A stretch of 54,539 bases of DNA, taken from a virus. The translations under genes and the position numbers were made by a program. Location of the stretch: the IMG/VR virus record IMGVR_UViG_3300032214_000203, positions 1-54,539 of that record. One strand, given 5' to 3'. Positions 21,495-36,412 of this stretch are shown here, piece by piece. How positions within the stretch are numbered: the stretch's first letter is position 1; each line of letters begins with the position of its first letter. The notes beneath the pieces are model-generated. The model was not told where the DNA came from. It made no database searches and was given only the letters and a program-made list of their open reading frames with translations.

Positions 21495-21496
21495 TC

Positions 21497-21982: not shown

Positions 21983-21989
21983 GCTTCAC

Positions 21990-23921: not shown

Positions 23922-23943
23922 TGATGTCTCCGCTTTTTTTTGT

Positions 23944-23973
23944 ACTCTAACCACACATAGAAATTGATGTCAA
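23944..23973 (-). promoter_or_regulatory. sigma-70-type promoter for the leftward recombination operon
   Basis: On the minus strand a perfect -35 TTGACA (23968-23973) and a -10 TAGAGT (23944-23949, 4/6 matches) are separated by 18 bp. It lies in the 63-bp divergent gap between the nuclease and RusA genes, so host RNA polymerase could drive this operon early (inference). Confidence 0.5.
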
Positions 23974-23984
23974 CAGGGGTATAT

Positions 23985-24386
23985 ATGGTGTACGAAGAGA
24001 TAACATTTACTATACTTGGTGAGCCAGCCTCTAAGGCCAACAGCCGAAAGGCCGTGATGTTTGGTAAGCGCCCTGCTTTTATCAAGTCGGACAAGGCGCG
24101 GGGGTATGTCAATGTGTTCGCAGCCCAGTGCCCCAAGCTTGCAGTGCCCTTCGAAGAAGATGTTCGCGTGGAGATGTTGATCTACTACGCATCCCGTCGC
24201 CCCGATCTGGACGAGAGCCTGATCCTCGACTGCATGCAGGGCCCGATCTACCTCAACGACAGGCAGGTCAAACAGAAGATGATCTACTGGGGTTTGGACA
24301 AGGCGAACCCACGCACAGTCATCAGGGTGAGTGCCGTCGAAAAAATTCCATCTCACCTATTACTAAAGCCGGAAGACGTTATGTAG
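23985..24386 (+). CDS. rusA: RusA-like Holliday junction resolvase
   Basis: 133 residues from an ATG with AGGGGT six bases upstream. RusA landmarks: FTILGEPASKANSRK (nucleic-acid-binding front), RRPDLDESLILDCMQG (the paired acidic residues) and IYLNDRQVKQK (third Asp). It resolves branched DNA made by recombination and replication. The last codons and the TAG stop are part of the first box of the repeated control module (24366-24418), so the module has overwritten or co-evolved with the gene end. Divergent to the exonuclease operon. Confidence 0.8.
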   Translation: MVYEEITFTILGEPASKANSRKAVMFGKRPAFIKSDKARGYVNVFAAQCPKLAVPFEEDVRVEMLIYYASRRPDLDESLILDCMQGPIYLNDRQVKQKMIYWGLDKANPRTVIRVSAVEKIPSHLLLKPEDVM

Positions 24387-24428
24387 ATTATCTATAAGTC
24401 GGAAGACGTAGTAGGTATATATATATAA
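24366..24428 (+). repeat. control module A: two CGGAAGACGT boxes 30 bp apart plus AT tail
   Basis: CGGAAGACGT at 24370-24379 and 24400-24409, followed by TAGGTATATATATATA. Over 53 bp (24366-24418) it is identical at 46 positions to module B at 37927-37979, in the same orientation, and both sit ahead of a rightward operon. No convincing -35/-10 pair was found in it; it may bind an activator or a phage-specific polymerase. Confidence 0.7.
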
Positions 24429-24490
24429 CTCTAAGTATAAGGCGAGATCGAACGACCTCGTTGACGGGCACCCCCAGCATCTCTTAGGAT

Positions 24491-24517
24491 GGTTCGGTCA
24501 GAGTTGGAGACCGAGCC
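24491..24517 (+). promoter_or_regulatory. translation-initiation hairpin abutting the primase-helicase start
   Basis: GGTTCGGTC and GACCGAGCC form a 9-bp stem (one G-T pair) around a 9-nt loop, ending at the base before the GTG start at 24518. The Shine-Dalgarno GGAG (24506-24509) lies at the loop/stem edge. Folding would limit ribosome access; a protein binding the loop could repress translation, as in known phage operators of this geometry (inference). Confidence 0.5.
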
Positions 24518-26299
24518 GTGCAAATCGAACAACAAGTTCGCGGCGAGGCATACAGATTAGGGTTAGGTCAGCACAAGATTAAGTGCCCTAGCTGTAGCCA
24601 CAGCCGTAAGAATAAAACCGATAGAACGCTCTCGCTCCGCATCGAACAAGACCGCATCCTGTATCAATGCTGGCACTGCCAGCAACAGGGCATTGTTCCG
24701 TTGCGTGAGGAGATGCCAGAGCCAAAGGTGATGCCTATGTCCGTCGCGAAGAATGTCGTTAAAGACCCACTGTCAGCCGAAGCCGTCGCATGGCTTAACG
24801 CCCGTGGCATATCGAGGGAGACCGCCGAGAAGGCTGGCGTATCTTCGACGCGCCATTGGGTGCAGGCACTTGGCAAGGAGACCGAGTGCATTCAGTTCTC
24901 CTACAAGAACAAGGGGCAAGAATACGCATACAAGATCAGGTCAATGGAGGGCAAAGGTTTCTCCTGCAATGGCGCACCGCAGACCTTCTTCAACATCGAG
25001 AGCGTGAAGCGCAACGATTGGATGATCATCTGCGAAGGCGAGATGGATGCGCTGGCATTCATGGAAGCCGGGTATGACAGCGTTGTTTCCGTCCCGAACG
25101 GCGCAGTGATGAAGGTTGTCGATGGGCAGATCGATCCCAAAGAAGACAACAAATTCAAGTTCTTATGGGAAGCGAAGAAGCAGATCGACAACGCCGCTCG
25201 CATTGTCATTGCCACTGATAGCGACGAGCCCGGTCAGGCGATGGCTGAGGAGATGGCCCGCCGCATTGGCAAGGATCGTTGCTGGAAGGTGGAGTTCCCT
25301 GCCGGGTGCAAGGATGCCAACGACGTGCTGATGTTGGCTGGCAAGGAAGGTGTCGATGGCATCGTTGTGAATTGCAAGCCGTGGCCTGTCGCTGGTCTTT
25401 ACGACGCCGAGCATTTCTATGAAGAGCTTGACGACATTTACGACAGGGGCATGGGGCGTGGCGAAAGCACAGGCTATGACAACGTGGATGAGTTCTACAG
25501 CGTGGTGACAGGGCAGCTTACAGTGGTCACCGGGCACCCGTCATCCGGCAAGTCAGAGTTCATTGACCAGATCATGGTCAACTTAGCGCAGTCAAAGGAT
25601 TGGAAGTTCGCCATCTGTTCTTTTGAAAACGAGCCGCGCCTGCATATTGCGAAGTTGATTAGCAAGTACCTACGCAGACCGTTCTTCGATGGGCCGAGTG
25701 GTCGAATGACCAAGGATGAATTGGATCGCGGCAAGGAATTTGTTCAGTCGCACTTTTCTTTTTTGTATCAGGCTGACGGCTCTCTCTCCTCAGTGGAGAG
25801 CATCATTGAGAGGCTGAAGGTTGCAGTTCTGCGGCACGGTGTGCGCGGCGCGATCATCGACCCCTACAACTACATCCAGAAGGGCCGCGATGTCAGTGAG
25901 ACGGATTGGGTGTCTGATGTCCTGACCAAGCTGCGCGTCTTTGCTCAGGCACACGGCATCCACCTGTGGTTCGTGGCACACCCGACGAAGATGATGCGCG
26001 ATCAAAGCGGCAAGGTGCCAGCACCGAAGGGGTACGACATCTCTGGCTCTGCGGCATGGTTTGCCAAGGCAGACATTGGCCTGACTGTTCACAGGCCCGA
26101 CCCCGCTAACTCCATCAGTTCAGAGATACACATCTGGAAGTGCCGCTTCTCATGGGTCGGCAAGCAGGGGCAGGCTGAGTTGGACTTCGATGTTCCGACC
26201 TCGACGTATAAGGGGCACGTCCCCGATCCGTTCTTGGATACAGCTATCGTGGTGCCCAGACCTTTGAGTTACAAAGATGACGACGACTTCCCATTCTAG
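24518..26299 (+). CDS. primase-helicase (T7 gp4/Twinkle-like)
   Basis: A 593-residue protein with three parts. Zinc ribbon: C23-P-S-C26 and C51-W-H-C54. TOPRIM primase core: IICEGEMDALAF (E173) and ATDSDEPG (D234, D236). RecA/DnaB-like helicase: Walker A GHPSSGKSE (339-347, K345) and Walker B AIIDPYN (D448). It ends SYKDDDDFPF, a tip like that of SSB proteins. It primes and unwinds DNA at the fork. The GTG start lies at the foot of a hairpin, and the gene is downstream of control module A. No DNA polymerase gene is present nearby. Confidence 0.9.
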   Translation: MQIEQQVRGEAYRLGLGQHKIKCPSCSHSRKNKTDRTLSLRIEQDRILYQCWHCQQQGIVPLREEMPEPKVMPMSVAKNVVKDPLSAEAVAWLNARGISRETAEKAGVSSTRHWVQALGKETECIQFSYKNKGQEYAYKIRSMEGKGFSCNGAPQTFFNIESVKRNDWMIICEGEMDALAFMEAGYDSVVSVPNGAVMKVVDGQIDPKEDNKFKFLWEAKKQIDNAARIVIATDSDEPGQAMAEEMARRIGKDRCWKVEFPAGCKDANDVLMLAGKEGVDGIVVNCKPWPVAGLYDAEHFYEELDDIYDRGMGRGESTGYDNVDEFYSVVTGQLTVVTGHPSSGKSEFIDQIMVNLAQSKDWKFAICSFENEPRLHIAKLISKYLRRPFFDGPSGRMTKDELDRGKEFVQSHFSFLYQADGSLSSVESIIERLKVAVLRHGVRGAIIDPYNYIQKGRDVSETDWVSDVLTKLRVFAQAHGIHLWFVAHPTKMMRDQSGKVPAPKGYDISGSAAWFAKADIGLTVHRPDPANSISSEIHIWKCRFSWVGKQGQAELDFDVPTSTYKGHVPDPFLDTAIVVPRPLSYKDDDDFPF

Positions 26300-26447
26300 A
26301 ACGCTGATCACTGTCAGAACCCACGCAGATGGAGTTGTTCTGTTTGTGTGGGTTGATGGCAAAGAGGTGGCGCAGGTGGTGATGGATGCGCCACACTACC
26401 TTAACCACATCCATGAGATATGCAGCGCAGCAAGACTCAATTGTTGA
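26277..26447 (+). CDS. small overlapping protein after the primase-helicase
   Basis: A 56-residue frame starting in another frame 22 nt before the helicase stop (MTTTSHSRTLITVRTHADGV and on, ending SAARLNC). The ITVRTHADGVVLFVWVDGKE part looks like a beta-hairpin module. The RBS is weak, so expression would depend on coupling. It is the last gene before the terminator at 26544. Function unknown. Confidence 0.55.
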   Translation: MTTTSHSRTLITVRTHADGVVLFVWVDGKEVAQVVMDAPHYLNHIHEICSAARLNC

Positions 26448-26543
26448 CCGCAATAAATTGCGCTGCTACATGTTGTGCCAGACAGCCATTGGCACACAGT
26501 GCTTGGTGCGTCTCCGCTCTGACCGTTCGTAGAACACACCTAG

Positions 26544-26571
26544 TGGGTGGCTTTTTAGCCACCCATTTTTT
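26544..26571 (+). terminator. rho-independent terminator of the RusA/primase-helicase operon
   Basis: TGGGTGGCT and AGCCACCCA form a perfect 9-bp stem with a TTTT loop, followed by TTTTTT. It faces rightward transcription and lies exactly at the convergent junction with the leftward accessory operon. Confidence 0.9.
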
Positions 26572-26773
26572 AATGGTGCGTTGAGTTCGCGGCCTCTGCT
26601 TCTGCCCTACTCATCTCATTGAGAATAAGCCCAACTGATGTTGCGATAATTGGCCAGTCTTCTCTAAAAGAGTACACCTCCACCGTTCCGACAAACAGTT
26701 TTATGATGTCAGCCGCCCACATTTTTTGGGGGAGTGAGGCTATGATCTTTTCGATTTCGTCTTGGTCGTTCAT
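26570..26773 (-). CDS. small protein, unknown
   Basis: A 67-residue acidic protein (MNDQDEIEKIIASLPQ at the front, IIATSVGLILNEMSRAEAEA towards the end). It is the last gene of the long leftward operon and its stop touches the terminator of the opposing operon. No motif recognised; the hydrophobic IIATSVGLIL is too short and mixed to be a clear membrane span. Confidence 0.55.
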   Translation of the reverse strand: MNDQDEIEKIIASLPQKMWAADIIKLFVGTVEVYSFREDWPIIATSVGLILNEMSRAEAEAANSTHH

Positions 26774-26794
26774 GGCAAGATCACCTTTCCTGTT

Positions 26795-27553
26795 TCAATC
26801 AAGGCCAAGCAGTGCATCCGTTACCTCCTTCTTTATGCGGCGGCGAAGCAGGCTCTCCGCCTTGGCAAAGTCTTTGTTGAGTGCAGTGATGCGCCTGTTG
26901 CCGTTGTCCCAGCACATTACCCATCCTTCGTGCAGAACCGGAACACCGCCCGTGCCTGTCATGGTGATGCAGTTGTAAGCCCGCACATCATCCGCACGAA
27001 GGCGATCTAGCTTGCGCTCACTGGCGCGAAGGATCAGGTGGGTCTTGTCTCCATCAGATACGGTAGAAATTCCCCTGTTATAAACGCTCCTGATCCATGT
27101 CAGTGGGACATTTATCCTGTAGCTCTTACCAAAGTAGTGAGAGCTTTTCACATCGATGTATTCGTGGACGGACTTCTTGGCATGGATGCTATCCACCTTC
27201 ATCTTTGGAAAGCAACTGGCAACAAGCGACTTCATCCAGAGTTCGGTGCTTGCTTTGGCTTGCTCAAAAATTCCATCTTGTTTTCTGTTGATCAAGACGG
27301 CACGGCAGTTAGCGAGTTCTATATACGCCGCGTGGAGTGCGTTGTAGATGCCAGAATTAAAGGGATCACTCAGTATCCTTGCGAAGTCCGGCACCCCATG
27401 TGGTGGGGGAGTGCCATATTTATATTGATTTGGGTCTCTGCAGAAAGTCTTGCGTTGTTCTGGCGTGAAGTGCAGCATCTTGAACGTCTGGTCGAGATAG
27501 TATCCTGCCATTTTTGATCGCGCGTAGATGGCGCGTGTGTCCATGTTTTTCAT
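26795..27553 (-). CDS. unknown 252-residue phage protein
   Basis: 252 residues, basic overall, from an ATG preceded by GGAG at 7 nt. Features: an N-terminal charged region (MDTRAIYARSKMAGYYLDQ), a mid Trp/Tyr-containing region (VHEYIDVKSSHYFGKSYRIN), and a Lys/Arg-rich helical C-terminus (FAKAESLLRRRIKKEVTDAL). A TMTGTGGVPVLHEGWVMCW strand-turn segment suggests a beta domain. No known family recognised. It has its own upstream gap with a palindrome (27570) and a possible folded RNA, so it may be regulated separately. Confidence 0.6.
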   Translation of the reverse strand: MKNMDTRAIYARSKMAGYYLDQTFKMLHFTPEQRKTFCRDPNQYKYGTPPPHGVPDFARILSDPFNSGIYNALHAAYIELANCRAVLINRKQDGIFEQAKASTELWMKSLVASCFPKMKVDSIHAKKSVHEYIDVKSSHYFGKSYRINVPLTWIRSVYNRGISTVSDGDKTHLILRASERKLDRLRADDVRAYNCITMTGTGGVPVLHEGWVMCWDNGNRRITALNKDFAKAESLLRRRIKKEVTDALLGLD

Positions 27554-27569
27554 TTCCGATCTCCGATTT

Positions 27570-27581
27570 GTTCGTTTGAAC
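27570..27581. promoter_or_regulatory. GTTC-N4-GAAC palindrome before the 252-residue gene
   Basis: Perfect palindrome GTTCGTTTGAAC followed by TTTT on the plus strand, 17 bp upstream of the leftward start at 27553, where a repressor would block the leader or RBS region. Confidence 0.5.
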
Positions 27582-27641
27582 TTTTGTTATTGTTCTGCAC
27601 CCGCCAAAAGCGAGCGCCTGATATATTGATTGAGTGATTGC

Positions 27642-27716
27642 GAGGGGCACGATGGTGGATGATGAGCCGTAGCGCAGTCTGATCTTCGACCAACACAAAG
27701 CCTGTGTGCGCCCCTC
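27642..27716 (-). ncRNA. possible folded RNA, tRNA-sized
   Basis: On the leftward transcript, GAGGGGC and GCCCCTC close a 75-nt unit (7-bp stem) that holds a small hairpin ACAC-AGGCTTT-GTGT and a second weak hairpin around GGTC/GACT. The size and closing stem recall a tRNA, but there is no T-arm and no proper anticodon loop. It lies in the gap between two leftward genes. Confidence 0.25.
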
Positions 27717-27734
27717 ATGGACTAGGCTATCGCC

Positions 27735-28043
27735 TCAACCCATTGCTTGCAACCGTTTCTGTTCTTCTAATTTCTTCAAGGCGCGCTCGACCGAAGCCTT
27801 GCTGGCCGACAGCTTCACCTTCTTGGGCGGCTGGTATGGCTCAATCTTATCGACCCATACACGTTCCGGTGCGGTAAGCGGCTTGCCGAATGTCATGAGC
27901 GGCAGCACAATTCCGAACCGTTCGCATGCAGCCTCGATACTTTTTCTGTGGAAGCCAAAGTGTTTACTTGCCTGCCCTGCATTCCAGCGTTTAGCCAGTG
28001 CGCTCTCCATCATATCGCGCGTTATAATCCTGCGGCCATTCAT
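27735..28043 (-). CDS. helix-turn-helix protein
   Basis: 102 residues from an ATG with AAAGGAG upstream. The segment LAKRWNAGQASKHFGFHRKS then IEAACERFGI reads as a helix-turn-helix; the C-terminal part is Lys-rich (KKVKLSASKASVERALKKLEE). A small DNA-binding regulator is likely. Its first 53 nt overlap the end of the upstream gene in another frame, unusually long for this operon where overlaps are 1-8 nt; an internal Met-Met at residues 11-12 would shorten the overlap but lacks an RBS. Confidence 0.55.
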   Translation of the reverse strand: MNGRRIITRDMMESALAKRWNAGQASKHFGFHRKSIEAACERFGIVLPLMTFGKPLTAPERVWVDKIEPYQPPKKVKLSASKASVERALKKLEEQKRLQAMG

Positions 28044-28206
28044 TCTCGGCTCTCCTTTTGATGGTCTCGATTTCAGGCAATCTCTGCCTAGCCATATACT
28101 CTATCAGCTCAAAGTCTGATTGCTGAACCCACCAACCCGGCAGCTTGACGTAGCCTGCTTCACGCAGGGCGCGGGCCGCAGGGCTATCGCTGGATGCTCG
28201 GCTCAT
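27991..28206 (-). CDS. small protein, unknown
   Basis: 71 residues, starting inside the stop of the preceding gene (TGATG). The core GYVKLPGWWVQQSDFELIEYM is aromatic and could be a compact winged or helical domain. No family recognised. The 3' end overlaps the HTH gene by 53 nt. Confidence 0.55.
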   Translation of the reverse strand: MSRASSDSPAARALREAGYVKLPGWWVQQSDFELIEYMARQRLPEIETIKRRAENEWPQDYNARYDGERTG

Positions 28207-28379
28207 CAGTCGCTGTCCGTTGTGATTTCGTAAGCCACGAGATGCAGAACACCAACGGCGGCGGCGAGGGGCATTCGTCCGCTATACTCATAGATCAGGG
28301 CTTTGATGCGGTCGCCCAGTTCCCCGGTCACGTCCTCGGCCCGCTTGCCGTCGCCCTTAAAGATGCGGATGTCACTCAT
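28206..28379 (-). CDS. 57-residue protein, unknown
   Basis: A frame of 57 residues (MSDIRIFKGDGKRAEDVTGE at the front; PLAAAVGVLHLVAYEITTDS at the end) linked to both neighbours by overlapping start and stop codons and preceded by AAGGAGGT. The C-terminal half forms a hydrophobic helix, possibly buried rather than membrane-spanning. Function unknown. Confidence 0.6.
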   Translation of the reverse strand: MSDIRIFKGDGKRAEDVTGELGDRIKALIYEYSGRMPLAAAVGVLHLVAYEITTDSD

Positions 28380-28563
28380 GGGGCACCTCCTTCACATTCG
28401 CCCGCAGATACAGCTTCTTGGCCCCTGCCCCGCAGGTCGGGCATTTGGTTTCCCGCACCAGCTTGGACAGCTTCCGCGCATCCATCGGGAACAACGGCCC
28501 TGCGGAGAAGCCTGTGGCGCACTCGCCGCAACGGAAGTGCAGGCGCTTGTCTAGGTCAGTCAT
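28372..28563 (-). CDS. zinc-ribbon protein
   Basis: 63 residues from an ATG after GGAG. FRCGECATGF and TKCPTCGAGAKKLYL give two CxxC pairs about 30 residues apart, a classic zinc ribbon. Such small proteins are common in phage accessory operons; the target is unknown. The start overlaps the upstream stop, and the shared upstream junction is a 30-bp repeat (28569-28598). Confidence 0.65.
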   Translation of the reverse strand: MTDLDKRLHFRCGECATGFSAGPLFPMDARKLSKLVRETKCPTCGAGAKKLYLRANVKEVPHE

Positions 28564-28795
28564 GGGTGTCTCCTTTGATCTCTGCGAGGGTGGCGCGGCG
28601 GTGATGCCACCAATCGTTGTATTTTGGTGTGCCGTGTCGAAAGGGGCATTCCTCAAGGGCCAGCCCCACCGCCTTCGCCAGTTTGGCAGTCAGGGCTTCG
28701 ATGCGGTCGGCGGATTGGCGGCACCAATCGCAGGCCATCTCTTTGGTCGCATGTAGTGGATAGCCGCACGCGCCACAGCATTTTTCGTCAGTCAT
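28556..28795 (-). CDS. Cys-rich small protein, unknown
   Basis: 79 residues with CCGACGYPL and CDWC near the N-terminus (two CxxC-type knuckles), a central helix, then ECPFRHGTPKYNDWW. It ends RATLAEIKGDTHD. Nearly the same ending (RATLAEIKGESHE) closes the protein at 29130-29309, because both gene ends lie in an identical 30-bp DNA repeat. GGAGGT is present upstream. Confidence 0.6.
   Translation of the reverse strand: MTDEKCCGACGYPLHATKEMACDWCRQSADRIEALTAKLAKAVGLALEECPFRHGTPKYNDWWHHRRATLAEIKGDTHD
28569..28598. repeat. 30-bp gene-junction repeat, copy 1
   Basis: Identical over 30 bp to 29143-29172. It encodes the last residues of the leftward gene (ATLAEIKG) plus the RBS GGAG of the next gene. 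Confidence 0.8.
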
Positions 28796-28970
28796 CGTCC
28801 ACCTCCATCATCTGCTTCACCAGTGCTGGCACCTTGCGCCACTTGTACAGGCTTGAGACACCGACGCGGTGCGTCTCAGCCGCATGCTGCACGCCGAAAC
28901 GCTCGGCATCCTGCAAGGCGGCAAGGCGCAGGCAATCCGTCAGCCCGTAGTCTGGATGCAGCCCGGTCAT
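28788..28970 (-). CDS. small helix-turn-helix protein
   Basis: 60 residues from an ATG preceded by GGGGAG. AERFGVQHAAETHRVGVSSL followed by YKWRK is a helix-turn-helix of the homeodomain/transposase-N-terminal type. It could be a regulator or a remnant DNA-binding module. It overlaps both neighbours by a few nt. A second candidate binder for the repeated palindromes. Confidence 0.6.
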   Translation of the reverse strand: MTGLHPDYGLTDCLRLAALQDAERFGVQHAAETHRVGVSSLYKWRKVPALVKQMMEVDDD

Positions 28971-29137
28971 TTGACGCAACTCCCCTGCACCCACTGCTTG
29001 TCGGCGGCGAGGCACTGCTCGTAGCGCACCTGACCGCGCTCCAAGTCAGCGAAAATAATTTGCCCCATGCCGTAGAAAAATAGTCCCGCAACGGCGGTGA
29101 TGGCCAACGGCACGGCGTTGTCCCAGAAGTCACTCAT
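28967..29137 (-). CDS. 56-residue single-TM protein
   Basis: 56 residues: a short soluble front, one clear transmembrane helix (AVPLAITAVAGLFFYGMGQI, residues about 8-27), then a polar tail with two cysteines (EQCLAADKQW...GSCVK). It overlaps both neighbouring genes by about 4-8 nt and has GGAGAG before the ATG. Possibly an inner-membrane peptide of a lysis-control, exclusion or host-takeover type (inference). Confidence 0.6.
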   Translation of the reverse strand: MSDFWDNAVPLAITAVAGLFFYGMGQIIFADLERGQVRYEQCLAADKQWVQGSCVK

Positions 29138-29309
29138 GGCTCTCTCCTTTGATCTCTGCGAGGGTGGCGCGGGCCTTCTCTGCCAGAAACTTATTGCCAG
29201 TGTCCTTGGCGTATCGCTCTACGCGTCGAGTAAAATCCACCAAAACGGCTAACTGGTTTATGCGCTTTGCCGCCTCTCCTTCCCAAGAGTTGTCCGGTTT
29301 ATCTTTCAT
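29130..29309 (-). CDS. small protein, unknown
   Basis: 59 residues, charged and helical (EAAKRINQLAVLVDFTRRVE and on), from an ATG with GGGGG five bases upstream. The end RATLAEIKGESHE comes from the 30-bp repeat at 29143-29172. Its start overlaps the stop of the upstream gene. No family recognised. Confidence 0.55.
   Translation of the reverse strand: MKDKPDNSWEGEAAKRINQLAVLVDFTRRVERYAKDTGNKFLAEKARATLAEIKGESHE
29143..29172. repeat. 30-bp gene-junction repeat, copy 2
   Basis: Identical over 30 bp to 28569-28598, at the same place relative to gene end and next RBS. Confidence 0.8.
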
Positions 29310-29524
29310 CTGCGCCCCCTGTTCCAAGCCAGCCGCGAAATCTTGTTGGCCAAGTCATCCAGTTCCGCTACGCTGATGCCGGGATTGTCGAGCAGGGCGG
29401 TGTAGATCGCCCCAGTCAGGCGGCGAGACGGCAGGATTGCCGACCCCTGAATGATTGCGGCCACCGCCTCTGCCTGCACGTCCCGTGTCGGCATCCGCGC
29501 CGCTTGTTTCTTCCAGAACATCAT
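29306..29524 (-). CDS. small helical protein, unknown
   Basis: About 72 residues starting at the Met-Met pair that follows AGGAGAG. Helices VQAEAVAAIIQGSAILPSRR and TGAIYTALLDNPGISVAELD end in a basic tail WNRGRR. It is directly downstream of the VWA protein gene and could be a small partner, but nothing shows this. Confidence 0.55.
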   Translation of the reverse strand: MMFWKKQAARMPTRDVQAEAVAAIIQGSAILPSRRLTGAIYTALLDNPGISVAELDDLANKISRLAWNRGRR

Positions 29525-29547
29525 CTCTCTCCTCATGATGGTCATTG

Positions 29548-30675
29548 TTATGCTGCCTTCAGGTAGGTCGTCTCACCCCAAGGCGCTGCTGTTGCGTGGC
29601 TCCAACTCGACACCCACAATGTCGGATAGCTGGGTTCCTCTTCAGGATAATCCCAAACTTGCAGGTCACTCAAGTAAACCATGTTGTCCACCTCTAGCTC
29701 GTTATCTTCGATGTACTGGAACACGGGCGAGACCATCGTGCCGCCGCGACCGCCGACGTGTATCTCATCGATCACCTCGCCGCGCTCATAGCGCCGCACT
29801 GTCCGCACCTTTGTGTCGCAGGTGATGACCGTGACCGACGCTGGCATGATGTCCTCGCTGATCGCGTTCAACTCGCCAAGAAACTGTGTCAGTTCGCCAT
29901 GCGACACCGACCCGCTGGTGTCTATGCCGATCACCACGTTGCCAGCGCCGATCCTCTGGATTGAAGGCGCGACGATGCCAGCCATGTGATACATCGCACG
30001 CTGCGGTCGGCGCATGCTGTAGTCGTCGGGTTGGTCGCCACCAATGAACCGCCGCATGACATCACGCCAATCAACCTGCGCCTTCTTCATTTGCTGGATC
30101 ATCTGATCGATCTTGAGTGGCAGCTTGCCGACAGCCTTGGCTGCGTTCGCCGCCATCATGACCTTGCTGTCGATGCTGGCTTCCATCTGCTGCTGTTCAG
30201 CGTTCGACAGTTCCTTCCCGCTCTTGCCCTTGGCATCGACCACCTCGCCAAAGCCACTGCCCTTTGCCTTCTCGCCTATGTTCTCAGGCAGTCGGTCGTA
30301 AGCAGCCTCGGCGCTGAGGTCTTTGTATTGCTCATCCATCAGCGCACCCATTGGCAGGATGAACCCACCCTCGAACAGGATGGGGTTGATGACGTAGTCG
30401 CAGGCATAGTTCCAACGCTCAGGATCACGCAGCCCACGCCGCAGCATGTGCTTCATCACGATGTGCATGACCTCATGTGCCAGCACGCCAATGCATTCGT
30501 CTGGCGTCATCCGATCCACGAAGTCGGGCGACCACATGATGGACAGCCCGTCCGTACACATTGTCGGGATGGTCGGATCAGGTGAGACCTTCACCGACAG
30601 GCACAACGATCCAAAGAACGGGTGCCGCACCACCAACTGGGTGATGGCACGGGACATCTTCATTTGTGCGTCCAT
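29548..30675 (-). CDS. VWA-domain protein with DUF2201-like metallopeptidase N-domain
   Basis: 375 residues from the ATG 4-9 nt after GGAGG. The N-terminal part has the DUF2201 pattern: HEVMH (67-71), an Arg/Gly turn, then WNYACDYVIN (D93). A Lys/Gln linker leads to a VWA domain with a complete MIDAS: DTSGS (D252, S254, S256), T313 in GGRGGT, and D337 in YLSDLQ. Proteins of this kind work with MoxR ATPases, whose gene is immediately upstream here. The pair may remodel or mature metal- or cofactor-dependent target proteins; the phage target is unknown. A palindrome (30691) and a hairpin terminator separate it from the ATPase gene, so it may be controlled on its own. Confidence 0.8.
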   Translation of the reverse strand: MDAQMKMSRAITQLVVRHPFFGSLCLSVKVSPDPTIPTMCTDGLSIMWSPDFVDRMTPDECIGVLAHEVMHIVMKHMLRRGLRDPERWNYACDYVINPILFEGGFILPMGALMDEQYKDLSAEAAYDRLPENIGEKAKGSGFGEVVDAKGKSGKELSNAEQQQMEASIDSKVMMAANAAKAVGKLPLKIDQMIQQMKKAQVDWRDVMRRFIGGDQPDDYSMRRPQRAMYHMAGIVAPSIQRIGAGNVVIGIDTSGSVSHGELTQFLGELNAISEDIMPASVTVITCDTKVRTVRRYERGEVIDEIHVGGRGGTMVSPVFQYIEDNELEVDNMVYLSDLQVWDYPEEEPSYPTLWVSSWSHATAAPWGETTYLKAA

Positions 30676-30690
30676 GTTTTCCTCCAAAAA

Positions 30691-30702
30691 GTTCAAGTGA
30701 AC
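30691..30702. promoter_or_regulatory. GTTC-N4-GAAC palindrome before the VWA gene
   Basis: Perfect palindrome; on the leftward strand it reads GTTCACTTGAACTTTTT, running straight into the GGAGG RBS of the VWA gene. Confidence 0.55.
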
Positions 30703-30748
30703 TAAAAACCCCGTAGATTTTGCTAGCAAATTTCATTCGGGGTTTAGT
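30701..30748 (-). terminator. hairpin terminator between ATPase and VWA genes
   Basis: On the leftward strand AAACCCCG pairs with CGGGGTTT, followed by TTAG; the loop holds a second palindrome TTTGCTAGCAAA. It begins a few bases after the ATPase stop. The plus strand also has a T-rich 3' side (TTTAGTTTTG), so it may act in both directions. It would reduce read-through into the VWA gene. Confidence 0.6.
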
Positions 30749-30753
30749 TTTGT

Positions 30754-31773
30754 TTACAGGATCAGGTTCTTGCCCACGGTCATGATCCAATCGCGCACAG
30801 GATCGACCTGCTTCAGTGACTTGTCGCGCGACAGTGCATCCTTGACCACGAAGGCAGCGAACTCTTGCTGCGGCAGGCGCATCAGGTACTTGATCACGTT
30901 GCCTGCGTTCTTGGGGTTCATCTTCACCGACAGCGCAGCGCAGATGGCGTACATCACAGCCGGGTCTTGGCTGATCATGGCCCCCATTGGGTTGGCAATC
31001 AGTTCGTCCATGTCCGGCACGATGCTGTACATCTCAATGAACCCTGTGAAGTCAGCCGTTGCACCGCGCCCGACCTGACCCGCCAGTGCCTCGCGTTCGT
31101 TCACCGGGCTGAGGCCCCATGACATGATCGATGCCACCCGTTCCCACGAACGTGGCGATGGGCATGCGTTCGCGTCACGGTCGAACTTGTGCAGCCACTC
31201 GGGGCGGAAGCGAAGGAAGGCACACACCCGCTCGTCGATCTTCTTGTTGTAGAAGTACTGGATGGTGTCTTCGAGGTCGGCCTCGACCTCAAGGAACATC
31301 AGGCGATCCTTGAGGTGGGACGGCATGGTGTTGGTGCCCGCACGATCTGAGGTGCGGTTGCCAGCGGCGACGATCACCCACCCCTCGGGCAGTTGATGCG
31401 GGCCGACCCGGCGTTCGTTGACGATCTGCGCCGCGATGTTCTGGTTCGCGGTCGGTGCCTGAGGCAGTTCGTCGAGGAACATAACGCCTTTGCCCTCGGT
31501 CGGCATCCAATCAGGGCGCATGCGGATCATGCTCTCGCCGTCCTTTGATGGGACAGGCCAGCCGCCCAGTTCGCCAGCGTCGTACTGTGCCAGCGACAGG
31601 ATGCTGCACTGCATGTCCATGCTTGCCGCCACATCCTTGACAACAGTTGTCTTGCCTAGGCCAGCGCCACCGATCAGGTAGGGCACAACGTACTGCGCAT
31701 CGCGTGCGTTCTTCAGGCTAAGGGCGTGGGTGATGGCCTTCTCGACAATGGCCTGTGCTTGGGAAAGTTTCAT
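30754..31773 (-). CDS. MoxR-family AAA+ ATPase
   Basis: 339 residues with Walker A GGAGLGKTT (35-43, K41), Walker B VMFLDEL (D101, E102), sensor-1 region IVAAGNR (N139) and a candidate arginine finger in HLKDRLMF (R157). The architecture is that of MoxR-type AAA+ chaperones (RavA, NorQ, CbbQ relatives). These form rings and act with VWA partners; the next gene encodes one. Its ATG overlaps the upstream stop and has GGAG. A palindromic hairpin terminator follows the stop. Confidence 0.85.
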   Translation of the reverse strand: MKLSQAQAIVEKAITHALSLKNARDAQYVVPYLIGGAGLGKTTVVKDVAASMDMQCSILSLAQYDAGELGGWPVPSKDGESMIRMRPDWMPTEGKGVMFLDELPQAPTANQNIAAQIVNERRVGPHQLPEGWVIVAAGNRTSDRAGTNTMPSHLKDRLMFLEVEADLEDTIQYFYNKKIDERVCAFLRFRPEWLHKFDRDANACPSPRSWERVASIMSWGLSPVNEREALAGQVGRGATADFTGFIEMYSIVPDMDELIANPMGAMISQDPAVMYAICAALSVKMNPKNAGNVIKYLMRLPQQEFAAFVVKDALSRDKSLKQVDPVRDWIMTVGKNLIL

Positions 31774-32129
31774 TGGTCGTTCTCCATTTCTCTGATGATC
31801 TTGTTAATTTGTTGGTCGATCCGCTCTTGGTCTTGGCGGATGCTGACGTGGAAGGATTTGTTTTCGAGCATGGCGCGTTGCTCTCGCAGCGCCACAACGC
31901 GCGGGTCTTTGTCGGCCAGTGCCTTTTGCTGCGCGAAGCGGCGGGACGTGCGGACGCTGGCATGCGCGTCTTTCATGGCGCGGGACAGGTCTTGCCTGCT
32001 GACGTGACCGAAATCTCGACGCGACCACTTGTCTTGCGCGATCCACAGCCAAGCGAGGCGCATCGCTGCGCCTTTTGACGAGAAGTCCATGGTCTGGCTT
32101 TGCAGGCGTGTGATCGTTTCAAGCTTCAT
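31770..32129 (-). CDS. helical basic protein upstream of the AAA+ ATPase
   Basis: 119 residues (MKLETITRLQSQTMDFSSKG at the front), very rich in Arg/Lys/Gln, with a long predicted coiled coil in its second half (ALREQRAMLENKSFHVSIRQ, then QERIDQQINKIIREME). Coupled on both sides (TAATG and ATGA). It could be an adaptor for the ATPase, by position only. Confidence 0.55.
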   Translation of the reverse strand: MKLETITRLQSQTMDFSSKGAAMRLAWLWIAQDKWSRRDFGHVSRQDLSRAMKDAHASVRTSRRFAQQKALADKDPRVVALREQRAMLENKSFHVSIRQDQERIDQQINKIIREMENDQ

Positions 32130-32671
32130 TACAGGCTCCAATTGTTCAGGCAGATAGGCCCGATCCCAAGTTCGATAGACACCGGGTCGGTCAGTGGCCG
32201 ACCACAGCATGAGCATTGCCCGGTCAGCTTGCCGTGCTTGACGGCCTCACCTTTCGGGTCACGCGCCACAGCGACAACGTTGTCAGGCACGTCAGAGGCA
32301 CAGGTCTTGGCAGGCACGAACATGCTGCCCACGATCTTGCCTTGATAGTCCGGGCCGCGCTTGACGTAGACAGCGCCAGCGTTCTTGCCGTTGGTGGGTG
32401 CCAGCGAAAAGGACAGGGCCGCAGCGCGGAACACGGGCTTCTTCACCTTGGCGTGCAGGAGCAGGTCTTTGATGCGCGACACATCGACGGCCCGCGTCAT
32501 GTCCTGCTTCTGCGTTGCTGTCTGCTTGACCTTCAGGATCATGCGCTCGGCTGCGTCCCACTGGCGCTCCGACAGTTCGCCCTTGCGCTGGTACTGCAAC
32601 AGCAGGCTGTGGGCGAAATCGTTCCACTCGATCATGGGCTTCAGCGCCTCGACGATCTCTTCGTATTCCAT
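32129..32671 (-). CDS. DUF6011-like zinc-knuckle protein
   Basis: 180 residues. The C-terminal GQCSCCGRPLTDPVSIELGI followed by GPIC is the DUF6011 signature: CxxC, then a lone Cys, with a conserved GR-LTD and GIGP. The middle (GAVYVKRGPDYQGKIVGSMF) resembles the beta-rich domain that often precedes DUF6011 in phage proteins. Function unknown; zinc binding is likely. GGAG precedes the ATG, which overlaps the upstream stop. Confidence 0.65.
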   Translation of the reverse strand: MEYEEIVEALKPMIEWNDFAHSLLLQYQRKGELSERQWDAAERMILKVKQTATQKQDMTRAVDVSRIKDLLLHAKVKKPVFRAAALSFSLAPTNGKNAGAVYVKRGPDYQGKIVGSMFVPAKTCASDVPDNVVAVARDPKGEAVKHGKLTGQCSCCGRPLTDPVSIELGIGPICLNNWSL

Positions 32672-32799
32672 CACACGCGCTCCTTATGTGCCTGCAGTTC
32701 GCGCAGGATGTTGACAAGGGCCAAGGCGTGCCCGCCGTTCTGGATGGCGTCACGCGCGATCAACTCGATCTGATCGAGCGTCTTCTGCATCTGTTCCAT
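32671..32799 (-). CDS. 42-residue helical peptide, unknown
   Basis: A frame of 42 residues (MEQMQKTLDQIELIARDAIQ and on) with GGGAG six bases before the ATG and a stop overlapping the next start (TGATG). It is predicted to be one or two amphipathic helices. The palindrome at 32816-32827 lies 17 bp upstream, the same distance as for the gene starting at 27553. Confidence 0.5.
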   Translation of the reverse strand: MEQMQKTLDQIELIARDAIQNGGHALALVNILRELQAHKERV

Positions 32800-32815
32800 T
32801 TCGATCTCCCGTTTA

Positions 32816-32827
32816 GTTCGTTTGAAC
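32816..32827. promoter_or_regulatory. GTTC-N4-GAAC palindrome before the 42-residue gene
   Basis: Perfect palindrome GTTCGTTTGAAC plus TTTT, with the same 16-bp sequence as the site at 27570, in the gap between two leftward genes. Confidence 0.55.
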
Positions 32828-32830
32828 TTT

Positions 32831-32920
32831 TCACCATGTGTCGGGCATCGACAGCATGGCGAACATGACGATCACCATCACGACCTTGAAGGCCAGAAGC
32901 TCTGCGATCTCGCGCATCAT
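32831..32920 (-). CDS. 29-residue hydrophobic peptide candidate
   Basis: MMREIAELLAFKVVMVIVMF then AMLSMPDTW: one membrane helix with a charged front. Start overlaps the stop of the preceding gene and follows GAGGGGG. Very short, so uncertain; the shape is that of small phage membrane peptides. Confidence 0.35.
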   Translation of the reverse strand: MMREIAELLAFKVVMVIVMFAMLSMPDTW

Positions 32921-33255
32921 GCGAACACCCCCTCTTCTTCGCAGGCCTTGAACAGCGCGCCGATCTCCTCGCCGGAGAACCGCTTGCCCTTGCTGTTCAT
33001 GGGGTAGGTGCGGATCACGCTGCTACCCTGCGTCGTGACGTGCTTGAAGGTCACGGGCTTGCCAGCTTTCTTCATGGCCAGCATGAACACCCCAATGTCG
33101 ATGTCTTCTTCGAGGAAGACAGTCGGCTTGTAGTTCTTGACGACAGCGTAGCTAAACCGCGACACGTCTTCGAGCGTCACACCGACGCCCAGCATGTCCT
33201 GATACGGCACCTCAAGCCAGCCGTGGCCGTCGTCGTGGTGGAACGTGTAGGTCAT
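32917..33255 (-). CDS. small protein, unknown
   Basis: 112 residues starting at the second Met (GGAG 8 nt before it). Front: TYTFHHDDGHGWLEVP, then MLGVGVTLEDVSRFSYAVV and a FLEEDIDIGVFMLAMKKAG stretch. It reads as a compact alpha/beta domain and resembles an unannotated phage family seen in early operons. The previous gene's stop overlaps the alternative upstream ATG. Confidence 0.6.
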   Translation of the reverse strand: MTYTFHHDDGHGWLEVPYQDMLGVGVTLEDVSRFSYAVVKNYKPTVFLEEDIDIGVFMLAMKKAGKPVTFKHVTTQGSSVIRTYPMNSKGKRFSGEEIGALFKACEEEGVFA

Positions 33256-33257
33256 GG

Positions 33258-33428
33258 TCATTTCTCCTTTTTCCCCCAGATCAGCACCTTGCCGATCACC
33301 TTCGACCGCAGGTCATCGCGGCCCAACAGTTCCTTGATGAAGTATTCTTCAAGGTCTTCGAAGCTTTCGAACTCGCAGCGGGTGTGTTCTTTCCCGTGCG
33401 CCTTGATCACAGTTTGTTTGATGAACAT
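33258..33428 (-). CDS. small protein, unknown
   Basis: 56 residues (MFIKQTVIKAHGKEHTRCEF and on), with AGGA 8 nt before the ATG. Alternating charged and hydrophobic residues suggest a small alpha/beta domain. No family recognised. Confidence 0.55.
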   Translation of the reverse strand: MFIKQTVIKAHGKEHTRCEFESFEDLEEYFIKELLGRDDLRSKVIGKVLIWGKKEK

Positions 33429-33450
33429 GTCACATCCTTTCTGTTCCATT

Positions 33451-33484
33451 GGATGCTGGCCCTGCAGGGCCAGACACCGATAGA
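33451..33484 (-). repeat. intergenic hairpin H1 with covarying partner
   Basis: CTGGCCCTGCAGGGCCAG (33456-33473), a perfect inverted repeat flanked by GGAT and ACACCG, lies 11 nt past the stop of the 226-residue gene. The same element with compensatory stem changes is at 34211-34244. No T-run follows, so it is not an ordinary terminator. Confidence 0.6.
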
Positions 33485-34165
33485 TCAGAACTCGCCCAGC
33501 CCCTCGGCCACAAAGGCAGAGACCGCAGCGTCCACGGTTTCATTCTCGGCACCCGCGCCAGCCTGTGCCGCCTTGGCAGCATCGCTGTTGCGGTAGGCAC
33601 GACGCGCCGCCATCAACTCGCGCATCGCGTTCTGGAACTCGTCCAGTTCCTCGTCGCTCAGGCCGTCCTTGAAGACGTTGCCCTGCACGACCTTGCCGTC
33701 TTCGTCCTTGGCGCTCGACCACTTGCCGACCACCTGTTCGGCCAGCATCTGGGCCTTGGACTTCTCAGCCTCGCCCTTCACGGCCTTGGCCAGCTTGTTC
33801 TCGCTGTCGATGCCGCTGCCGTCCAAGAACTCGCGCACCATCTGGGGGGTCGCGTTGGACATCCCGCCCAGATCGAACAGGCGCACAGCACCCACGCTGT
33901 TTTCAATGTAACGCTTGGCGGTTGCCTCCTTCAGGCCCGCCTCTTCAAGCAGGGCGGAGCGCAGTGCCTTGCTGACGGCGCGGGGCAGGTTGCCCTTGAC
34001 CAGCTTGACCGGGGCGATGCTGGCGATCAACTCGCAGTAGGCACCGATCTTGCGGCTGTTGGCGACTTCGTTGTTCGCCTTGTTGTCGGCCTTGAGGCCA
34101 GCGATCTCGGCCTCGGCGGCGTTGATCACATTGATGGTTTCGTCGGCAATAATGAACTTAGACAT
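33485..34165 (-). CDS. 226-residue helical protein, unknown
   Basis: 226 residues from the ATG after GGAGG. Mostly helical and Ala/Glu/Lys-rich: MSKFIIADETINVINAAEAE, then VKLVKGNLPRAVSKALRSAL, LKEATAKRYIENSVGAV, and an acidic C-terminus (LSDEELDEFQNAMREL ... FVAEGLGEF). It could be a nucleic-acid-associated or oligomeric structural protein, but no family is recognised. Hairpin repeats bracket it on both sides (33451 and 34211). Confidence 0.55.
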   Translation of the reverse strand: MSKFIIADETINVINAAEAEIAGLKADNKANNEVANSRKIGAYCELIASIAPVKLVKGNLPRAVSKALRSALLEEAGLKEATAKRYIENSVGAVRLFDLGGMSNATPQMVREFLDGSGIDSENKLAKAVKGEAEKSKAQMLAEQVVGKWSSAKDEDGKVVQGNVFKDGLSDEELDEFQNAMRELMAARRAYRNSDAAKAAQAGAGAENETVDAAVSAFVAEGLGEF

Positions 34166-34210
34166 CTGGGTTCCTCCATCTGGCTGTCTATGTTGTCGAG
34201 GTGATCCTCG

Positions 34211-34244
34211 GGATACCAGCCCCGCAGGGCTGGACACCGGAAGT
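34211..34244 (-). repeat. intergenic hairpin H2 with covarying partner
   Basis: CCAGCCC (34216-34222) pairs with GGGCTGG (34227-34233), flanked by GGAT and ACACCG, again 11 nt past a stop codon. Two of the seven pairs differ from H1 and both stay paired. Confidence 0.6.
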
Positions 34245-34688
34245 TCACGCTGCCACGGGCAGGGCGTTGGGGCGCTGGCAGGCGATCTGCTTTGCCATGA
34301 CGCTGAAGGCGAGGGCTGCATGTTTCGGCAGCGAAGCCCAGCCAAAGCTGCAGCACACCGACACGCCGTCTTGGCTGACCACCACATCGCCGACCGACAT
34401 CGAACGCAGGCCCTTGCAGTGGTAGATGGGCTGGACACCCGTGTCGAACGGCGCGCCGTTGTCGTAGTCGAACACGGCATCCACGCTGCGGGCCTCAACC
34501 GTCAGGCCGTGGTGGTACAGGCCGACCAGCGCAGCGCACATGACGTGCATGGGCATCTCGGGGTTGTCACCCTTTGCGAAGGTGAGGCGACTGTAGGTGA
34601 TGCTCTCCGGCGAAGCGTTCCATCCCTTGGCGTTGATGGCAGCGGAAACGGCGTCGGACAGGTGCAGTTTGTAGACGTGGTAAAGCAT
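34245..34688 (-). CDS. YodL-like domain protein candidate
   Basis: 147 residues with GGAGG upstream. The region VDAVFDYDNGAPFDTG followed by LRSMSVGDVVVSQDGVSVC and a FGWASL segment resembles the YodL-like domain, in which an RS(L/M)SVGDVV strand pair precedes an aromatic Gly turn; that domain is found in polyvalent and accessory phage proteins. Role unknown. Confidence 0.5.
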   Translation of the reverse strand: MLYHVYKLHLSDAVSAAINAKGWNASPESITYSRLTFAKGDNPEMPMHVMCAALVGLYHHGLTVEARSVDAVFDYDNGAPFDTGVQPIYHCKGLRSMSVGDVVVSQDGVSVCCSFGWASLPKHAALAFSVMAKQIACQRPNALPVAA

Positions 34689-34689
34689 T

Positions 34690-34845
34690 TCAGGCCTCCT
34701 TATGGCTCAGTGCTTGGATCAAAATCGCGCTGTCTGCGGCGTTCAGCAGCAACTCGGCGAAGGGGTGTGTTTTGTGGTAGGCAGCAATGCGCTTGGCATT
34801 GGCGGCTGACGGGTCAGCGATGTAGAGGGCAAGCAGTGTGGACAT
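34690..34845 (-). CDS. 51-residue protein, unknown
   Basis: A frame of 51 residues (MSTLLALYIADPSAANAKRI and on, ending ALSHKEA), coupled to the upstream gene through TAATG and carrying the RBS of the next gene (AAGGAGG) in its last codons. Ala/Leu-rich helices, no motif. Confidence 0.55.
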   Translation of the reverse strand: MSTLLALYIADPSAANAKRIAAYHKTHPFAELLLNAADSAILIQALSHKEA

Positions 34846-35051
34846 TACCACGCCCCCATCATCTCGCTGCGATGCTCATCCAGCACCTTCACCACCCGCT
34901 TGCAGGCAGCGATGGCAGCCTTGGGCGTCTTGGCGCCGCCAATGGCAACGGCGATATCTTCATCACTCCAGCACTCGGCCAGAAAGTCCCAGCCGCCCTT
35001 GCCCCAATGGGCGTCGGCGTGGTCGCGAACAGCGCGGATCAGTTCATCCAT
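34845..35051 (-). CDS. small protein, unknown
   Basis: 68 residues (MDELIRAVRDHADAHWGKGG at the front) from an ATG after GGAG. WDFLAECWSDEDIAVAIGGA then TPKAAIAACKRVVKVLDEHR suggests a helical bundle. No family recognised. Confidence 0.55.
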   Translation of the reverse strand: MDELIRAVRDHADAHWGKGGWDFLAECWSDEDIAVAIGGAKTPKAAIAACKRVVKVLDEHRSEMMGAW

Positions 35052-35061
35052 GTCAGTCTCC

Positions 35062-35229
35062 TCAGTTCAGGGCGCAGTCGAGCATGATTGCCCGACGCTC
35101 AGCCTCGGCCAGCGACACACCAGCCTTGATTGCATAGGCCTCGATCAGGCCAGCGCAGCGATCAGCAGCGCCGGGATAGTTCGCTCGCAGGGTGCGGGCT
35201 GCATTCTCAAGGATCATCTTCGCAGTCAT
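35062..35229 (-). CDS. first gene of the long leftward operon, unknown
   Basis: 55 residues from the ATG after GGAGG (MTAKMILENAARTLRANYPG at the front). Helical, Ala-rich. It follows a leader of about 370 nt that holds an attenuator-like hairpin. Confidence 0.55.
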   Translation of the reverse strand: MTAKMILENAARTLRANYPGAADRCAGLIEAYAIKAGVSLAEAERRAIMLDCALN

Positions 35230-35259
35230 GGGATTTCCTCCAGTTGATTGAGCCACCAA

Positions 35260-35281
35260 AACGGCCCACCAAAGGGCCGTT
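35260..35281 (-). promoter_or_regulatory. leader hairpin (attenuator-like)
   Basis: AACGGCCC and GGGCCGTT form a perfect 8-bp stem with a 6-nt loop, 31 nt before the first gene of the leftward operon; on that strand it is followed by only four T, so a weak terminator or RNA-structure element. Confidence 0.45.
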
Positions 35282-35733
35282 CGAATTGTTCAATCATAAG
35301 CACCTCTGCCGTTCTCTGGGGATCAGGCCAGCGCAACGCTGAGCCATCCGACCCTTCCGATACCAGACCGTGTTTTAAGCGATCACCTGAGCATCAGTGC
35401 TGCACCCCGTTTGGTGGGAAGACCCCGCTTTGTGGGCCGACCAGACTGCCGGGCGAAAGCCCCTGTCCAATCCGCGCTAGGCGAGAACCTGATCCTGCTG
35501 GCCGTGCGAGGCCTTTATGTCAATTCCGCTGGATCGTGGCGGCGGTGCCGGGGTCAGGGTGGGGGGGCCAAGCGCCGCGCCGTCCCTTCCGACACCAATA
35601 GACTTATTCCCCTTTCACTCCCTTGTCAACACCTATGTTCCCTTGTTTACCCTTACATGCAGCATGGCAGAAAGCCCAATCATCACAGGGGTTTGGGATG
35701 GCAAAAAAGCCGGGAACGTGTAGGATGTTGAAA
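35282..35733. other. gene-free leader/control region of the leftward operon
   Basis: No convincing gene on either strand. It contains two near-copies of a 15-bp unit (ACCCCGTTTGGTGGG at 35404-35418 and ACCCCGCTTTGTGGG at 35422-35436), G/C-rich stretches able to fold, the possible leftward promoter at 35601-35629, and the palindrome just beyond at 35734. It probably acts as the divergent control region between the accessory operon and the small terminase gene. Confidence 0.5.
35601..35629 (-). promoter_or_regulatory. possible promoter for the leftward accessory operon
   Basis: On the minus strand a perfect TTGACA (35624-35629) stands 17 bp from TAAGTC (35601-35606), a poor -10. Supported mainly by position ahead of a 24-gene operon. 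Confidence 0.35.
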
Positions 35734-35745
35734 GTTCGTTGGAAC
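35734..35745. promoter_or_regulatory. GTTC-N4-GAAC palindrome before the small terminase gene
   Basis: Perfect palindrome GTTCGTTGGAAC followed by TTTTT, 109 bp before the terminase small subunit and in the divergent control region. Confidence 0.5.
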
Positions 35746-35854
35746 TTTTTCTGGCATCACGCTGGGGCCAGATCAGCCAAAACGAATCACCCCAAACATT
35801 CAGGGGGGTGAATGTATCAAACCCCGAAAGCCCAGCGCAGCGCAGGACAGATCG

Positions 35855-36412
35855 ATGACAGATAAACCCAAGCTCACAGTGGTAGGCGGATCAGGTGACA
35901 CCACAGGCACCAACACAGATGCCAAGACCCCAAGGGGAAGGGCATACAAAGGCCAGCCAAAGACAAGTGGCCCAAAGACGCCAGTGAACAGCGAAGGCCT
36001 CACAGCCAAGCAGGAGGCGTTCTGTCACGCTATCCTCGGCGGCAAGGGATGGAGTGACGCATACCGCGAGGCATACGATGCTGAGAACATGAGCGCCGCA
36101 AGCGTCCATCGCGAGGCATATGCACTGGCAACCAGCCCCAAGATTGCATCAAGGCTGGAGCGTGCAGAGAAGGAAAGACAGGCGGAACAGCGCATGCAGC
36201 GGCTCTCTCGAGCAGAGCGTGTCATTGAAAAGCTTGAAGGTATCGGTGTTCGGGGCGATGCTGCAGACGGCACACAGGTGCGGGCACTGGAACTGTTGGG
36301 CAAGACGCTGGGCCTGTTCGTTGACCGGGTCGAGACAGAGGATAAGACGCCGCGTGATGCAGACAGCATCCGTGCAGAACTGGAGCAGCGGATCAACAGG
36401 CTGATGGGTTAG
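35855..36412 (+). CDS. terS: terminase small subunit
   Basis: 185 residues. A basic, disordered front (residues 1-45) is followed by LTAKQEAFCHAILGGKGWSD, AYREAYDAENMSAASVHREA and a PKIASRLERA segment: the helix-turn-helix DNA-recognition part of small terminase proteins of the Terminase_2 type. A coiled-coil region and an acidic C-terminus follow. It recognises the packaging site, which could lie in the adjacent repeat-rich gap. It is separated from the large subunit by 1.7 kb and by two opposing genes, an unusual arrangement. The stop is 1 nt before an imperfect palindrome copy (36412-36423). Confidence 0.8.
   Translation: MTDKPKLTVVGGSGDTTGTNTDAKTPRGRAYKGQPKTSGPKTPVNSEGLTAKQEAFCHAILGGKGWSDAYREAYDAENMSAASVHREAYALATSPKIASRLERAEKERQAEQRMQRLSRAERVIEKLEGIGVRGDAADGTQVRALELLGKTLGLFVDRVETEDKTPRDADSIRAELEQRINRLMG

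Follow-up and report, generated by a model that had tools for sequence, protein, structure and literature searches.

Two neighboring genes of a virus, one for a MoxR-type AAA+ ATPase (P0001) and one for a protein in which a predicted metallopeptidase domain precedes a VWA domain (P0002), form a genuine pair, the adjacency of which is not strict. The window, by which we mean the whole stretch of DNA that was analyzed, is virus record IMGVR_UViG_3300032214_000203 at its full length of 54,539 bases (features in Table 1). Our favored reading, to which we give a probability of roughly 60%, is that P0001 works as a MoxR-type AAA+ ATPase with a dedicated VWA co-chaperone, P0002, that is fused to a zinc-metallopeptidase; less weight within this reading goes to a substrate of the replication phase. 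The sequences themselves provide complete active sites in both proteins, joint presence or absence of the two genes, and orthology to gp24 and gp25 of phage N4.

Table 1. Coordinates of the paired genes, their surroundings and the head and packaging genes of the window
Feature	Position	Strand or direction	Remarks
AAA+ ATPase, MoxR type, 339 aa (P0001)	30754-31773	-	PHROG_1297; ortholog of N4 gp24
Metallopeptidase (DUF2201_N) + VWA (DUF2201), 375 aa (P0002)	29548-30675	-	PHROG_1314; ortholog of N4 gp25
Intergenic gap	30676-30753	-	Hairpin and palindrome copy, then GGAGG ribosome-binding site of VWA gene
Small helical protein P0003	31770-32129	-	Candidate adaptor of the earlier note; only closest relatives
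Small protein P0004	29306-29545	-	Candidate adaptor of the earlier note; only closest relatives
DUF6011 protein	32129-32674	-	Frequent upstream neighbor in clade, not obligatory; 11/18 representative loci
Conserved protein, ~225 aa	33485-34162	-	Upstream of pair; 17/18 representative loci
Conserved protein, ~252 aa	26795-27553	-	Downstream of pair; 16/18 representative loci
Primase-helicase	24518-26299	Opposite to leftward block	Within ~20-35 kb region
Terminase	38121-39626	Rightward	Head/packaging gene
Portal	39637-42081	Rightward	Head/packaging gene
GroES-like co-chaperonin	42351-42719	Rightward	5' of capsid gene
Capsid	44778-45686	Rightward	Head gene

Joint presence of the ATPase and VWA genes

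The ATPase gene lies upstream and the VWA gene 78 bases downstream, both on the same strand and both with plausible ribosome-binding sites. The two frames are open over the positions listed in Table 1, as the earlier note had them, and the motifs that it named in them are correct. When whole records were searched with both profiles, 37 of 49 virus records contained both genes, 12 of 49 contained neither, and none contained a single one, which upholds the claim that the ATPase and the VWA-metallopeptidase belong together; the 49 records were picked in three ways and are not all independent. Both genes were present in 21/21 records picked through the pair or its neighborhood, and neither was present in 8/8 named phages picked by terminase similarity and not by the pair (Pag-Yong1, searched alongside these eight and already counted, has both). 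The 20 IMG/VR contigs picked by terminase comprised 16 with both genes and four with neither, all four being fragments.

Stretches selected by DUF6011 with at least 2.5 kb downstream held both genes in 35/35 cases, and the VWA partner was found in 53/53 viral loci that were selected by the ATPase and had room for it. The pairing extends to bacterial DUF2201 loci, 73 of 80 of which have the ATPase (within 200 nt in 46); most of the other seven are truncated on one side, near the gene. The bacterial copies of the partner carry the same zinc and MIDAS residues. A tblastn search over 50,697 phage records gave 794 with the ATPase and 570 with the partner, the nearest match being Roseobacter phage CRP-7 with 39.8% (ATPase) and 35.3% (partner) identity.

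The ATPase-first order within one genome was found in the window and in relatives, and close adjacency is not universal. Bacillus phage G and CRP-7 have several small genes between the ATPase gene and the VWA gene, and in E. coli phage FV3 the two are about 4 kb from each other and on opposite strands. Relatives with the ATPase gene and no VWA gene nearby, or with loss of key residues, had been named by the earlier note as telling against a functional pair. Both kinds exist and are rare: the former in Vibrio phage SRILMA, with about 44 kb between the two genes, and in the opposite-strand arrangement of FV3, the latter in Rhodothermus phage RM378, in two zinc ligands. As a side observation, the layout of the pair in Campylobacter phage A141 (L022, MG065672), classed as Vequintavirus, is the same as in FV3, and the host label of A141 may be wrong.

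The both-or-neither pattern, together with the conserved zinc and MIDAS sites described below, suggests that the two proteins act together as a single machine, in which the peptidase is probably important.

Active sites and structure models

On its sequence, P0001 is a MoxR-type AAA+ ATPase. It matches PHROG_1297 over nearly its full length (E 1.6e-77, residues 26-336 of 339) and Pfam AAA above cut-off, and it has the Walker A, Walker B, sensor 1, arginine finger and sensor 2 elements that serve to recognize the MoxR clade. The motifs are GGAGLGKT (Walker A), FLDE with D101 and E102 (Walker B), sensor N139, R157 and R208. Residue conservation was read across 54-55 distinct phage sequences, ranging from cyanophages to Bacillus phage G, in which the Walker, zinc and MIDAS residues of the pair are 96-100% conserved. 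For the ATPase (55 sequences), K41, D101, E102, N139 and R157 are present in 100% and R208 in 98%, so the Walker motifs are as intact as had been claimed.

Structure models of both proteins were built as single chains from clade alignments. The P0001 model (m55b5763291f3, mean pLDDT 85.5) is closest to NorQ and CbbQ, with Foldseek E values of 1e-8 to 1e-7 and, in VIA-align, a Z of 14.5 and rmsd of 3.4-4.0 over 200-229 residues, Clp and HslU chains falling within about 1 Z of these two. The best solved relative by sequence is midasin. At the place where the helix-2 insert of the clade would be expected, the model has short strands (73-75 and 82-84) between a helix (66-70) and the Walker B strand.

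The most likely start of P0002 is the ATG at 30675, behind GGAGG, rather than the TTG at 30729. The protein matches PHROG_1314 over its full length (E 1.7e-102, residues 2-373 of 375), and PF13203 (6.7e-47, 160.8 bits, cut-off 23.2) is followed by PF09967 (4e-25, 88.8 bits, cut-off 26.4) in the expected order, both above cut-off. The peptidase motif HEVMH (67-71) is accompanied by H76 and D93, and the MIDAS consists of D252-S254-S256, T313 and D337. Both sites, described in the earlier note as intact and full, hold across the 54-55 phage sequences: H67 is conserved in 98% and E68, H71 and H76 in 100%, and in the MIDAS D252, S254, S256 and T313 reach 100% and D337 98%. We infer that D93, also at 98%, is the third zinc ligand. 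The one clear exception is the RM378 copy (L027:9084-10364), which lacks H67 and D93 and keeps the MIDAS; because two zinc ligands are missing there, proteolysis by this family may not always be needed.

In the P0002 model (m8c5f9386f7e1, mean pLDDT 83.9), the VWA part resembles many VWA domains (Z about 12, rmsd 2.4-3.1, ~135 residues), in a VIA-align list that is filled by VWA folds and covers this part only. The peptidase part gives weak matches to M. jannaschii selecase and HtpX, selecase being also the weak Foldseek match.

In the database the family PHROG_1314 is called 'HNH endonuclease', a name that recurs in many RefSeq (NC_) phage annotations. The sequence of P0002 is that of a metallopeptidase-VWA protein, and the database name masks the nature of the partner.

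The gene block, its neighbors and a dispersed palindrome

The tail-side genes of the window run rightward, as do the head and packaging genes. Most genes between ~20 and 35 kb run leftward, a Sak annealing protein and an exonuclease among them, and the pair is contained in a leftward block of about 23 mostly small same-strand genes from 26570 to 35259. The pair thus lies opposite in strand to the head and tail genes, with small genes around it and replication and recombination genes next to it. The earlier description of an operon of about 24 tiny genes is thus a fair one, and its membrane protein can be recognized in a small product (28967-29137) with one apparent transmembrane helix. Of the other members it named, the DUF6011 protein was confirmed with Pfam, and the zinc-ribbon-like protein appeared only below the Pfam cut-off.

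The nearest terminase matches are phage 023Pt_psg01, DSL-LC04 and the pelagiphages HTVC027P and HTVC023P. A GroES-like gene upstream of the capsid gene is an arrangement common to the window and HTVC023P-type pelagiphages, and terminase relatives (53-58% identity) that keep the capsid and GroES genes are without both genes of the pair. We also note that a general scan of the proteins at window positions 20000-36000 showed no apparent DNA polymerase gene, and that HTVC023P-type relatives have one. Elsewhere in the window, a 3120-aa protein with an LPD38 polyvalent-protein domain is encoded at 10764-20126, and the tail-side block ends with an RCC1-repeat protein (a predicted beta-propeller; 53085-54461), the gene before it coding for a GIY-YIG endonuclease (52488-53081).

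The two conserved proteins of ~225 and ~252 aa that flank the pair had no match in the phage collection and no useful one in Pfam or PHROGs. The proposal that the small flanking proteins P0003 and P0004 are adaptors is not supported by the neighborhood comparison, in which both are confined to the closest relatives. As general adaptors they were rejected: tblastn over the first 20 loci placed P0003 in five viral relatives and P0004 in three, all of them close, and a scan of viral contigs with P0003 gave two relatives. The distribution of P0003 rests on tblastn, its profile having also caught out-of-frame overlaps.

The gap between the two genes folds into a hairpin with z -1.8 in the window and a mean z of -2.3 over 13 loci (hairpin scan with shuffles). 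A hairpin is found in most relatives that have a gap there, with differing sequences, and was not listed by a consensus scan for intrinsic terminators. It could lower expression of the VWA gene relative to the ATPase gene.

A separate feature of the window is a dispersed palindrome, AGTTCANNTGAACTTTT, with 22 matches at up to three mismatches against 0.98 expected (0/100 shuffles). Copies lie at window positions 5602, 12636, 22785, 27569, 30690, 32815, 35733, 36411, 37874, 42772, 45686 and 49270, among others, one of them just before the VWA gene. Its core, AGTTCNNNNGAACT, occurs at 13 sites against 1.3 expected, seven of them intergenic in a window of which only ~10% is intergenic. The palindrome is enriched in most clade members checked and not in the relatives that lack the pair, and its distribution appears operator-like or stoperator-like.

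Possible function and relation to known systems

The mechanism of a MoxR ring with an inserted VWA partner is supported for NorQ-NorD (PMC13036017). By analogy with that system, P0001 would form a hexameric ring onto or into which the VWA domain of P0002 would dock, the VWA domain holding a substrate through its MIDAS so that the VWA-peptidase serves as the substrate adaptor of the ring. ATP hydrolysis would then pull or twist the substrate, and the adjoining peptidase domain, in most carriers at least, could cut it. With less weight, we would place the substrate in the cell during the early or replication phase, as a phage or host protein complex and not as part of the finished virion. Such a role is somewhat likelier than one in virion assembly, because HTVC023P-type phages lack both genes and because the pair is found among small early-type genes. 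The broader proposition, that gp24/gp25 are an AAA+ unfoldase-zinc peptidase acting on host or replication-phase proteins, and not in virion assembly, across unrelated phages and bacterial chromosomes, is tentative and on balance doubtful.

The alternative that survives best is a virion-assembly chaperone, in which the pair would assemble the tail or head and the peptidase would trim structural proteins. This role, virion assembly with proteolysis, was proposed for the pair of group 2.2 jumbo phages by Iyer et al. (PMC7824862), by analogy with ATV p618/p892, the data on which are reviewed in PMC4124505. The position of the genes speaks both ways: the pair adjoins virion genes in RaK2 and cyanophage S-TIM5, and virion proteins are encoded near gp24/gp25 in N4-like roseophages, but in both the window and N4 the pair belongs to a block of early or middle genes, gp24 and gp25 being middle genes of N4 (PMC4193335). 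The pair is entirely missing from phages with related genes for terminase, capsid and GroES, and its carriers span unrelated virion types (podo- and myoviruses). We consider an assembly role unlikely, a little more so than the broader proposition above.

Less probable again is the host-takeover or anti-defense machine put forward in the earlier note, which would unfold or cut a host protein or defense complex. The pair does sit among small, fast-changing early-type genes, its N4 orthologs are expressed in the middle phase (PMC4193335), and bacterial MoxR-VWA pairs remodel host complexes (PMC9976466). However, a PADLOC scan gave no defense or counter-defense signature: the ATPase had an insignificant BrxF match (E 0.0061, a short P-loop stretch), the DUF6011 protein a weak typeIV_Cas5 match (E 1.2e-4), and nothing in the scan was convincing. 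The same pair is, moreover, common in bacterial chromosomes. Counter-defense genes are usually patchy in distribution. Core-gene status throughout a phage family, seen in N4-like phages of many hosts (PMC4193335, PMC7650795), fits host-specific counter-defense poorly and speaks mildly against it.

A highly improbable alternative is that the pair acts on the giant ejected or polyvalent protein of many carriers, by folding, loading or trimming it. The window and N4 do encode such proteins (3120 aa, and a vRNAP of about 3500 aa), and large ORFs occur in Thermus phage phiFa and Rhizobium phage TM29. Of the genomes scanned for LPD38, giant proteins with this domain were found in 7/7 clade members and in Pag-Yong1, each of which carries the pair, and in none of the four closest pair-less relatives, an association that could come from relatedness alone. 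Two counter-examples leave the idea as a weak rival only: CRP-7 has the pair, and the stretches of it that were read contain no ORF above about 1,400 aa; ctsTn925 has a giant LPD38 protein and lacks the pair. The LPD38 frames of the clade members, Pag-Yong1 and ctsTn925 measure 2291-3149 aa.

The window pair can be set beside several known systems. NorQ-NorD, CbbQ-CbbO and RavA-ViaA share with the window pair an AAA+ ring component and a VWA partner with a MIDAS. These bacterial systems act on nitric oxide reductase, Rubisco and respiratory enzymes, and no such target was seen in the window. To our knowledge, the VWA partners NorD, CbbO and ViaA have no DUF2201 metallopeptidase domain. The MoxR and VWA core is also common to the MoxR-vWA ternary conflict systems (PMC7159879), in which it is joined by VMAP, iSTAND, FtsH or a beta-propeller; no third component (VMAP, iSTAND, FtsH) or fused beta-propeller is present in P0002 and the scanned neighbors, and the bpMoxR model scored 13.5 bits in the window, below its cut-off of 27.

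Among viruses, ATV p618/p892 of an archaeal virus is likewise a virus-encoded MoxR ATPase with a VWA cofactor (PMC4124505). Unlike the window pair, it has no reported peptidase domain (PMC7824862), and p618 is one of the main components of the virion, with a link to the growth of its tail outside the cell. The pair of the group 2.2 jumbo phages, a MoxR ATPase and a vWA protein with an N-terminal metallopeptidase (PMC7824862), has the same domain architecture as ours, and jumbo phage RaK2 holds both families. Whereas that pair was proposed for virion assembly, the window pair lies in a block of small genes away from the structural operon, in a genome of 54.5 kb.

The closest described counterpart is gp24/gp25. 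In the list of 14 core genes of N4-like phages, gp24 stands as 'unknown' and gp25 as 'vWFA domain' (PMC4193335), and both reappear in a later panproteome table (PMC7650795). Our literature search found no experimental study of phage gp24/gp25 and no activity, complex or substrate shown for phage members; the pair goes unmentioned in the papers on rV5 and on the pelagiphages, and a term search of a CRISPRi-ART paper that used N4 gave no mention of these genes. The window pair matches gp24/gp25 in families, ATPase-then-VWA order, active-site residues and early or middle region, at about 26-28% protein identity and in a phage that is not close in terminase to N4 (the N4-like phages are now Schitoviridae). 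The pair is therefore not new, N4 gp24/gp25 (PMC4193335, PMC7650795) and the jumbo-phage pair (PMC7824862) having already been described. What we present is an already described pair in a new phage, and the new element is the test of the pairing itself. The genes gp24 and gp25 belong to the core of an entire phage family, and finding their substrate would account for a conserved infection step in many phages.
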